This document shows, one piece after another, positions 9,444 through 13,868 of a DNA stretch of 64,000 nucleotides (its first letter is position 1; each line of letters starts with the position of its first letter). The position numbers were made by a program, and so were the translations under genes. Under the pieces are notes generated by a model. The model was not told the DNA's origin and did not search any database. It saw nothing but the letters and a program-made list of their open reading frames with translations. The stretch is from Hymenobacter mellowenesis (lineage in GTDB: Bacteria > Bacteroidota > Bacteroidia > Cytophagales > Hymenobacteraceae), in the NCBI RefSeq assembly GCF_030581005.1, contig NZ_JAUQSX010000001.1, positions 558,001 through 622,000 on the forward strand. Direction: 5' to 3'.

Positions 9444-12266
<2,823 letters not shown>

Positions 12267-12410: not shown

Positions 12411-12592
12411 CCGCATGCGGCAAGCCACCCCAGCACACCGCCCACCCCCACCGCCGCATGCGGCGGGATACCTCGGCATACCTCCTACATCCATCACCGC
12501 ATGCGGTGAGCCACCCAAGCACTGTGCCCACCTGGACCGCCGCATGCGGTTAGTCAGGTGGGCACACCGGGTATATCCTTCGCCGCATGCGG
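12411..12592. repeat. Five-copy palindrome array CCGCATGCGG, 43-bp period
   Basis: The 10-bp palindrome CCGCATGCGG occurs at 12411, 12454, 12497, 12540 and 12583, each exactly 43 bp after the last, with four 33-bp spacers. The palindromes are identical, whereas the spacers have diverged: spacer 1 and spacer 3 share about 24 of 33 positions, the others less. The array lies between the convergent hybrid kinase and a pseudogene. No cas gene is near and the repeat is far too short for CRISPR. Confidence 0.85.
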
Positions 12593-12608: not shown

Positions 12609-13186
12609 TTAGGGCTTGGTGGCTGCCGCGGCGGGCTTGGCCTTGCCGCCGGTGCGGTTGGGCAGCAGGCCGTAATTGAAGTAGGCCTCGGCCTGCGCGG
12701 GGTGTTCCCAGAAGGCCCCCAGCGCGGTGCAATGCACCTGCCACAGCAGCCGGGTGGCCTGCGCCCATTGCCCGCCCAGGGCGCCAATGGTTTCCTTGGC
12801 CACTTTCAGACCGGCGTCTTTGGCGGTGGTGGCGGCCGTGAGCTCGGCCAGCAGGGCGTTGGCATCCTGGCCCAGGTCGGCGCCCAAGGCAGCGGCGTGG
12901 GCACTGAGGGCTTGGGCGAAGGCCTCGAAGCGCACGGGCAGGTCGGTGGTATTGGCGTCGGTGAGGTGCATCAGGCCCTGGGGCAGCAGTTCCTTGAGCT
13001 TCTCGGGGTGCTCGAGGTAGGTGGGCACCAGCTTCGCGGCGTTGGTGTGCTGCACAAACACGCGCATGGCGCGTAGCACGTCCTTTTTGGAGCGGGTGAG
13101 GGTTTGGCCGGTGGCGCCCTAACCTTCGCGGGCCACCACGCTGCCGCCCAGGGCCTGCGCGGCGGCCTGCAGGTCGGCGCTCAGCT
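12609..13186 (-). pseudogene. Truncated hypothetical protein with internal stop
   Basis: The frame runs from the stop at 12609 upward through LTRSKKDVLRAMRVFVQHTN, AAKLVPTYLEHPEKLKELLP and a C-terminal Lys/Ala tail. It is closed by a TAG at 13121-13119. Beyond that stop the same frame continues in clearly coding sequence (KLSADLQAAAQALGGSVVAR) for about 22 codons until it runs into the REP doublet at 13187. The intact protein would therefore have continued upstream. It carries both a nonsense codon and a 5' truncation at the REP boundary. The visible domain is helical and Ala/Leu-rich; I do not recognise the family. The remaining 156-codon open frame begins with a GTG at 13079 and could still be translated, but a functional product is unlikely. 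Confidence 0.7.
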
Positions 13187-13288
13187 TAGTAGCGCGAACT
13201 TTTAGTTCGCGTCCCCACGCGATACCTGCACGACCGCCGGACGATTATCTACCGGCGCGGAAACGCGGACTGAAAGTTCGCGCTACTA
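13187..13288. repeat. REP doublet upstream of RAYT, GCGAACT family
   Basis: The left arm starts with TAGTAGCGCGAACT and pairs with the right arm ending GTTCGCGCTACTA at 13288. Each arm is GTAG plus a hairpin (CGCGAACT / AGTTCGCG), separated by about 50 bp. The same family occurs at 13901-13987 on the other side of the transposase. Confidence 0.85.
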
Positions 13289-13298
13289 CCTTAACGGC

Positions 13299-13868
13299 AT
13301 GGGTGACCCGATACATTATGAGCGCAACCTGCCGCACCGCCTTCCGCCTGGGTCCGATATTTTTCTCACCTTCCGGCGGGCTGATTCACTGCCAGCCGCA
13401 CAGGTAATGCAGCTGCGGGCACAGTTTAGCCGCACCGATGCTGAAGACGCCAAGACCGCCGAAACTTCTTATGCCTGACAACGCCGGTATTTCGGCCGGT
13501 TCGATGCGCTACTTGATGCCGGGCACCACGGGCCTGTCTGGCTTCGCAATCCAGCTGTCGCCGCTATGGTGGGCACGGCACTTCGCCATTACCATGGCAA
13601 TGCCTACACCCTCGTTTGCTATTGCCTGATGCCAAACCATGTGCATCTGGTGGTTTCGTTGCCCGATGAAGCCCCGCCATTACTAAAAACTCTCCAACAT
13701 CTGAAAGGCTATACGGCCCAGCAGGCCAACCAACTGCTGGGGCGCACGGGGCAGTTCTGGCAGCGCGAAACCTATGACCACCTCATCCGCAGCCCCGAGG
13801 AAATGACGCGCATCATTGCCTATGTCGTGAACAACCCAGTGAAAGCAGGACTAGCCGCCAATTGGTAA
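13299..13868 (+). pseudogene. REP-associated tyrosine transposase (RAYT) with in-frame TGA
   Basis: RAYTs are single-domain Y1/HUH enzymes that cut REP hairpins after the GTAG signal. Reading from the ATG at 13299 gives MGDPIHYERNLPHRLPPGSD, FLTFRRADSLPAAQVMQLRA and so on to SYA. A TGA at 13476-13478 interrupts it, and the same frame then continues as QRRYFGRFDALLD, CLMPNHVHLVVSLPD (HUH motif) and RIIAYVVNNPVKAGL, which holds the presumed catalytic Tyr. The two halves together have the usual RAYT length (~190 aa), so a single nonsense mutation is the simplest reading. The downstream half alone keeps the catalytic motifs and has an ATG at 13566. REP doublets of one family flank it at 13187-13288 and 13901-13987. 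Confidence 0.85.

Follow-up and report, generated by a model that had tools for sequence, protein, structure and literature searches.

The array of five identical palindromes in the 64,000-nucleotide stretch of DNA analysed here (the window) is one member of a family of loci, each composed of a gene and an adjacent array with its own palindrome. Across this family, gene and array are linked, the sites are phased and under symmetric constraint, the half-sites are specific to individual paralogues, and one segment of the encoded protein, the C-terminal tail, tracks the half-site. We consider it probable from these sequence comparisons that the array provides DNA sites for the protein of the adjacent gene, which would bind them as phased dimers with the tail reading the half-sites.

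The window array was located by sequence scan at 12411..12592 (no strand assigned) and is formed by five copies of CCGCATGCGG with half-site CCGC at an exact 43-bp period. Counted from the neighbouring gene, unit 1 lies at 12583..12592, 16 bp from the stop codon of that gene, and is followed by units 2 (12540..12549), 3 (12497..12506), 4 (12454..12463) and 5 (12411..12420), none with an assigned strand. The starts at 12411, 12454, 12497, 12540 and 12583 confirm the regular step reported in the preliminary description, and a direct count reproduces the drift of the spacers, with spacers 1 and 3 agreeing at 24 of 33 positions. In the window, CCGCATGCGG occurs only as the five array copies, as compared with 0.45 copies expected from dinucleotide shuffles, none of which reached five copies (0 out of 100). 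The genome-wide search proposed at that stage found the pattern of paired CCGCATGCGG at 43-bp spacing at one place in the 6.42 Mb genome, the window array itself. Single copies number 14, five in the array and nine elsewhere, and a reversed control pattern occurs eight times; the palindrome is thus not a frequent, randomly spaced sequence of this genome. A scan of the window for palindromes sharing a common 4-bp half-site at 41-43 bp detected the window array alone. The same scan at six other period ranges returned no further 3-unit array, the range of 20-22 bp re-detecting the window array through the rule that allows one skipped unit. An Rfam search gave two weak microRNA matches far below threshold and none near the gathering score.

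The array is flanked on one side by a sensor histidine kinase gene (9444-12266, + strand; Pfam HisKA, HATPase_c, Response_reg and Hpt) and on the other side by an opposite-strand frame with its stop at 12609. This frame belongs to a broken copy of a family gene (12609..13190, - strand), which we recognised by homology to intact relatives over 12612-13190 (570612-571190 on contig C11 of G000, the genome of the window) and which has an in-frame TAG at 13119-13121 and lacks its N-terminal part. It is 79% identical to the H. frigidus gene over 168 residues, and its sole match in Pfam is Cpn60 at 16.2 bits, below the cut-off of 34.3. Judging from sequence, the neighbouring gene is the likely reader of the array. 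The C-terminal tail LLPNRTGGKAKPAAAATKP (12612..12668, - strand), the segment that the tail comparison associates with the half-site, contains RTGGK next to half-site CCGC, and the motif R[NT]GGK is common to the window copy and the CCGC-class members L021, L022 and L023. The place of the N-terminal part is occupied by an IS200-like (Y1_Tnp) frame at 13566-13868 (Pfam E 2.7e-6) together with an inverted repeat ahead of it, at about 13187-13213 / 13258-13288 (GCGCGAACTTT/AGTTCGCG type), and the gene looks as if it was broken by a REP/RAYT-type insertion. All five sites of the window are perfect though the gene is broken; in H. frigidus the gene is intact and two of the five cores are changed. 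With the gene broken, the window array is either now used by another factor or a relic that has still to decay.

To place the window locus among its relatives, we relied on a search for GCATGC triplets at this spacing in 120 genomes of the genus, which matched seven genomes. Besides the window genome (G000), arrays of CCGCATGCGG are present in G025 (H. frigidus), G059 (H. psychrotolerans, two places), G068 and G115 (H. terricola), and the matches in G006 and G021 look by sequence like other kinds of repeat. The one in G021 (L020, C17, 2401-2611) is a 42-bp tandem repeat with GCATGC whose units have no common palindrome layout, in a genome without family match, and it may be unrelated in kind. 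In G025, G059 (C21) and G068 the array adjoins the same gene as in the window. The locus can be recognised in relatives by its kinase neighbour (68-75% identical over 380-385 residues), which makes the H. terricola locus, with a kinase 75% identical over 383 residues, apparently the same one. The half-site is CCGC in the window genome and in G025, and CCAC in all five units of H. terricola, where the tail reads NPGR in place of RTGGK. Spacer similarity in the three pairs of window-locus arrays is 0.61-0.64 at equal rank and 0.49-0.53 at unequal rank. Relatives therefore hold arrays at the same place with diverged spacers, contrary to the recent exact duplication with identical spacers that the preliminary description had considered.

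The distribution of the gene family was traced with two profiles. Profile A1, derived from four relatives, matched 34 of the 120 genomes of the genus. With profile A2 (63 rows), matches were obtained in 43 out of 204 genomes from the bacterial family; they fall in two of six genera, and one genome can have as many as 11. Among 395 genomes sampled evenly from the phylum, matches were limited to G000, G005 and a partial one in G298 (profile residues 18-108, E 5.7e-8), which lies outside the bacterial family and was judged from its surroundings to be due to chance. Family members have about 230 residues and a median pI of 9.1 (82 members, range 5.1-9.8), and they evolve under purifying selection (dN/dS 0.13-0.42 in 10 out of 10 pairs). 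Searches with 63 members against Pfam, NCBIfam, PADLOC, PHROGs and PDB sequences gave nothing credible: PADLOC and PHROGs returned isolated weak matches only (best PHROG E 0.00097, in one member), and no DNA-binding domain was recognised with Pfam and NCBIfam. The AF2 structure model is moderate (pLDDT 74, pTM 0.56) and predicts an all-helical protein; tail residues 216-229 have pLDDT under 50, as might be the case for a tail that folds on DNA. Foldseek gave no match at E <= 0.001 (best E 2.1), and the best VIA-align hit (3dby, Z 7.3, rmsd 5.8, 138 aligned) is in the range of common helical arrangements, with no row standing out.

Family copies seem to be lost often: in 15 of the listed matches one or two stop codons lie within the match, though in some cases perhaps just where it ends, and several further matches are fragmentary. 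A plasmid or phage origin found no support, the array region (as DNA) and one family protein having no match in a plasmid collection, and group 1 having none among viral contigs in one scan. The nearest frames on each side (244 at 126 loci) form similarity clusters of at most seven loci. A frame that reads as lipoprotein-like lies 5' of the gene at L021, L022, L025, L026, L044, L054 and L077, in two subfamilies and with 30-38% identity where aligned to that of L021; it is possibly a partner, or mere shared ancestry. Other neighbour clusters resemble shared loci in which the gene is constant and the palindrome differs (for example L062 CAAC, L066 TACG and L071 CGGA).

We examined 126 family loci, 121 of which are near-complete, with a match spanning at least 180 profile positions, and searched 600 bp on either side of each gene for arrays, defined as at least three palindromic 10-mers at 41-43 bp. 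Arrays were found beside 65 of the 121 near-complete members, 53 behind the gene and 12 others in front, and none appeared in 20 shuffles of each 3' flank; when exact half-site identity was imposed, 57 of the 121 members retained them. The control of 400 kb (20 segments of 20 kb from the gene-bearing G005 and G014) contained no array and not even two units, one of these segments holding a family gene without array. The remaining 56 members have no 3-unit array by this detector, and a few of them lie at contig ends. Arrays behind the gene begin close to it, at most 60 bp from the stop codon in 41 of 53 cases and at most 100 bp in 46; for arrays in front, 86-211 bp separate the profile match from the last palindrome detected in the chain. 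The 65 arrays are composed of three (10 arrays), four (15), five (21), six (16) or seven (3) units. In two arrays in front (L160 1214-1420 and L155), a second palindrome (TACGCCCGTA and TTGGGGCCAA, respectively) recurs at the same period with an offset of about 21 bp, so that two palindromes interleave at half period. Searches of open-licence papers brought up no account of the arrays.

The palindromes differ widely between members, with 36 different half-sites in the 82 members that have at least two units. After omission of the members with fewer than three units (17 of the 82), here as well as in the tail comparison, the regression and the nearest-neighbour tests, half-site agreement (out of four bases) rises with protein identity, although not smoothly: it is 1.1-1.3 below 30% identity, 1.4-2.2 at 30-70%, 3.2 at 70-90%, and 2.5 on average at 90-100%, where only two pairs are available. 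Switches are detectable among close relatives, as in L062 (CAAC) and L066 (TACG), which are 81% identical, and in L037 (GCAC) and L038 (CCAC), at 85%. In addition, the half-site changes (CCAC with GCAC or CCGC) in the course of one phased array in L027, L229, L019 and L227/L230, some of whose units have unlike halves; these arrays are possibly snapshots of a switch.

To identify which part of the protein follows the half-site, we compared pairs of members with at least 60% identity that had the same (45 pairs) or different (77 pairs) half-sites, the pairs not being independent of each other. For the covariation set the window fragment (L029) was omitted, and in the tail tests the register of L086 was reset by hand, giving it half-site GGGA. 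The contrast between the two sets is strongest in columns for residues 213-219 of the model, in the C-terminal tail: residue 215 differs in 2% of the pairs with the same half-site and in 60% of those with different half-sites, and residue 218 in 31% and 83%, respectively. In a regression allowing for body identity, sharing a half-site had an effect on similarity of 0.164 in the tail and of 0.10 and 0.158 in the two windows overlapping the tail, as compared with -0.066 to 0.031 for all others, and none of 1000 permutations reached the effect of the tail. The same signal is detectable across subfamilies, where the tails of 24 pairs with the same half-site have a similarity of 0.327, above the 0.255 +-0.017 obtained by shuffling tails inside each subfamily (0 out of 2000). 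In a leave-one-out test, the nearest tail had the same half-site in 35 of 49 cases and the nearest body in 21 of 49; for neighbours with less than 60% body identity, this lead is barely left (13 of 31 for the tail and 11 of 31 for the body). One segment of the protein, the C-terminal tail, thus tracks the half-site.

Several classes can be recognised by eye. Tails with R[NT]GGK go with CCGC, NP[GSA]R with CCAC, RN..R with GCAC (6 out of 7), [IV]SK.G with TACG, GG[GS]KK with CGGA, and KRP.K with GGAC in two distant subfamilies. L069, in the case of CGGA, and L042 depart from their class. No code is visible in the mostly non-basic tails of two groups, the members whose array precedes the gene and the subfamily comprising L083, L085, L143, L145 and L146. 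In a gene remnant of G006 (L262, G006:C6:900-1900), nothing but the C-terminal portion including the tail is left, and a GCAC array follows it.

When five half-site classes were searched over 120 genomes, arrays were also found away from recognisable family genes. The 14 orphan arrays that we looked at lie between other genes, with no recognisable family gene in several kb around. In this search the CCGC class was covered genome-wide only with an AT centre, which leaves the CCGCGTGCGG array of G066 uncounted; also uncounted is a match in G006:C4, which looks like a plain tandem repeat and where the reversed control gave 6 as well, and the G006:C6 array beside the gene remnant was kept apart as a fragment. 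With orphan and gene lists compiled by hand, the cognate gene was present in the same genome in 11 of 27 orphan genome-class combinations and missing in 16. This co-occurrence exceeds the 5.86 expected when labels are shuffled among gene entries (106 of 20000 shuffles reach 11), and looser nulls expect 1.27 and 3.69 (0 out of 20000 each). G022 and G104 have arrays and no family match at the threshold used. The letters at +-6 and +-7 of orphan units also resemble those of gene arrays in the same genome (0.84, n=15) more than those in other genomes (0.63, n=174; 0 out of 10000). Since the inner spacers are likewise more alike within a genome (0.52, n=15) than otherwise (0.43, n=153, with the G113 gene rows and L023 omitted from the spacer comparison), common descent or duplication may contribute to this similarity. 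In G016, L258 and L259 have unlike spacers (0.44 and 0.34) and matching outer letters (0.85 and 0.90), and in L256 and L257 neither spacers nor outer letters match well (0.40 and 0.60). One orphan locus has five units in G059 and one in G022. An insertion with target duplication at the G059 orphan array, suggested by ACCGTTTCAA on both sides of L017, was rejected, given that the single-unit locus of G022 has the same flanks, slightly changed. Overall, orphan arrays tend to match the gene of their own genome, which lends correlative support to a putative use in trans.

The covariation between tail and palindrome could also arise if another protein reads the array and the family gene is a linked passenger. 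As the tail codons directly adjoin the arrays at the 3' side, joint exchange of the gene end and the array by recombination could create it. A separate reader would suit the 14 orphan arrays and those of G022 and G104, the intact sites beside the broken gene of the window, and the pair L085 and L086, which are 93% identical with nearly identical tails and have different palindromes; the lipoprotein-like 5' frame, recurring at 7 of 126 loci in two subfamilies, makes a partner protein possible. However, tails associated with the same half-site are alike across distant subfamilies, as for GGAC in L034 and L137/L166/L174. Furthermore, L066, with a body that is 83% identical to a CAAC member, combines TACG in its array with a tail of the TACG type, and its spacers are no closer to those of TACG arrays (0.46-0.48) than to those of the others in its own clade (0.41-0.48). 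A constant partner is also not apparent among the nearest frames on each side, where no cluster exceeds 7 of 126 loci. We therefore consider a separate reader unlikely and favour recognition by the protein of the adjacent gene.

The anatomy of the sites is consistent with DNA that is read as symmetric and phased units. Sites with identical half-sites behind the gene are separated by 42 bp in 178 of 225 pairs, by 41 bp in 18 and by 43 bp in 29, and each distance between 11 and 40 or 44 and 75 bp is represented by at most two pairs. In 268 downstream units, mirrored positions are complementary in 96-99.6% of the cases at +-2 to +-5, in 80% at +-6, in 69% at +-7 and in 59% at the central pair, where complementarity is below the expectation of within-array shuffling. 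The identity between units of the same downstream array follows the same course (0.94-1.00 at +-2 to +-5, 0.80-0.83 at +-6, 0.68-0.73 at +-7 and 0.36-0.67 beyond), and values up to 0.82 occur at some spacer positions of the 12 upstream arrays. The downstream paralogues have in common a weak symmetric flank motif at +-11 to +-18 (GGCTTC on the right), and each unit is hence a private core with a shared flank. The preliminary description had interpreted the array as symmetric sites on one helix face for a dimeric protein. Its geometry is supported by the peak at 42 +-1 bp, by the near-invariant and symmetric half-sites and by base-pair covariation that is at most slight; the family of genes and arrays was beyond its reach, and binding by a protein is what the sequences suggest.

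Most arrays lie right behind a stop codon and could be co-transcribed with the gene, so that the palindromes might act at the RNA level, as protein-bound hairpins or as repeats similar to those of type III toxin-antitoxin systems. Some single units do have long complementary arms (unit 1 of L046 and two spacers of L070, for example). The excess of pairing over shuffling of partners within arrays peaks at +-20, with 0.055 in the 268 downstream units and 0.073 in 58 upstream units. An excess so slight indicates that the symmetry derives mainly from common sequence rather than from arm-to-arm pairing, and makes a hairpin or cruciform constraint unlikely. No consistent compensatory covariation is visible over 326 units, and pairing conserved up to +-2 would leave a 2-base loop, which RNA hairpins are not known to form. 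The exact spacing of 42 +-1 bp suits DNA, and no Rfam match approached the gathering score. Alternating inverted units, suggested by a period of 84-86, were also rejected: in 58 arrays, direct identity is 0.594 between neighbours and 0.584 between second neighbours, against 0.484 and 0.485 in inverted orientation. An RNA-level element is in our opinion very improbable, and we retain DNA sites for the adjacent gene's protein.

Spacers were also compared by rank between related arrays. Out of 16 such pairs, 11 have spacers that resemble each other more at the same than at different rank, reaching 0.95 versus 0.51 in L025/L026 and 0.71 versus 0.53 in L136/L184, two pairs with identical half-sites; the five pairs without this advantage are L021/L022, L036/L037, L037/L038, L053/L055 and L062/L066. 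A functionless origin by mutation, with tandem duplication and template switching keeping the palindromes perfect and identical, would agree with these five pairs, with the four-unit difference between G059 and G022 at one locus and with palindromes that differ freely between arrays, but we regard it as the least credible explanation, as the central base pair is neither symmetric nor homogeneous, unlike +-2 to +-5, half-sites are identical where units are individually recognisable (L025/L026 and L136/L184), and the period of 42 and the tail covariation would be left unexplained.

From these patterns we infer a protein that binds DNA, as cooperating dimers, and whose tail reads the half-site. 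The small, mostly basic and by prediction all-helical protein would sit on each palindrome as a dimer of two-fold symmetry, the 4-5-bp half-site being read by its C-terminal tail, as the covariation suggests; its conserved body may touch the weaker symmetric motif in the flanks, 11-18 bp away from each centre. As 42-43 bp correspond to about four helical turns, bound dimers would stack on one face of the DNA and could form one multi-dimer nucleoprotein complex. Since the palindromes of paralogues differ, each copy would be a separate address system, and arrays with the same palindrome elsewhere in the genome may be occupied in trans, in line with the correlation described above. As a first guess, and a doubtful one, the role of this complex might be tethering, bridging or local silencing, by analogy with SopB on sopC.

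Taken further, these loci may form an evolvable DNA-address system, in which a large paralogous family encodes the half-site in a short C-terminal tail, each copy has a private phased array and same-address arrays elsewhere, and addresses are rewritten together with the tail. We propose this with reserve; the window locus provides an example, with CCGC and RTGGK replaced by CCAC and NPGR in H. terricola. If this were true, such sets could organise the chromosome or tell copies of an element apart, and the question would arise of why a genome holds up to 11 family matches and many different self-addressed arrays. It would also imply a DNA-binding family outside the models searched, with dozens of natural pairs of protein and site, where about ten tail residues seem to decide which sequence is read. 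These pairs would offer a directly testable DNA-recognition code and orthogonal DNA-binding parts. More generally, it would show that a protein-DNA system may lie behind a regular palindrome array of 'no known feature type', the array being its visible half.

Several known systems share features with these loci. CRISPR arrays also have identical short repeats at regular spacing, but the repeats here are of 10 bp, the spacers of 31-33 bp are related to each other (identity to the next spacer 0.59, 58 arrays), and the symmetric flank motif extends into them. Type III toxin-antitoxin systems place a small gene beside a short tandem array; their antitoxin repeats are RNA, lie upstream of the toxin and are not palindromic DNA sites, and no model of the ToxN, CptN or TenpN type (ToxIN, CptIN, TenpIN) was matched among the 63 members in Pfam, NCBIfam and PADLOC. 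REP/BIME elements with RAYT (IS200-like) transposases are likewise intergenic palindromes near a gene, and an IS200-like frame lies next door in the window. However, no transposase model was matched by the family proteins, the IS200-like frame seems to have entered the family gene as an insertion of its own, and REPs are not known to form exact 42-bp arrays.

The closest resemblance is to the type Ia partition system of the F plasmid, in which SopB (ParB_F) binds sopC. According to PMC9178275, sopC comprises twelve repeats of 43 bp, in each of which a dimer binds a 16-bp inverted repeat, and lies downstream of the gene of the binding protein; sopC papers are also among the references of PMC9499535. 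The statement that no known feature type explains the array thus goes too far as regards its layout; the protein, however, matches no ParB model. Both systems have 43-bp tandem inverted repeats downstream of a gene, which here is the gene of a putative binding protein, and a multi-dimer complex is likely in both. They differ in that the 63 family members match neither a ParB nor an HTH model in Pfam or NCBIfam, that the arrays counted here have 3-7 units rather than 12, and that there are many chromosomal paralogues with different palindromes. Type Ia partition also has a gene for a ParA ATPase in the operon; here no ParA partner emerged from the nearest frames, which were compared by similarity and form clusters of at most 7 of 126 loci. 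Because a ParB protein, which these loci lack by the models searched, is one of its defining features, we do not file the family under ParABS type Ia partition. As an analogy of layout, F-plasmid sopC is the nearest to these arrays.
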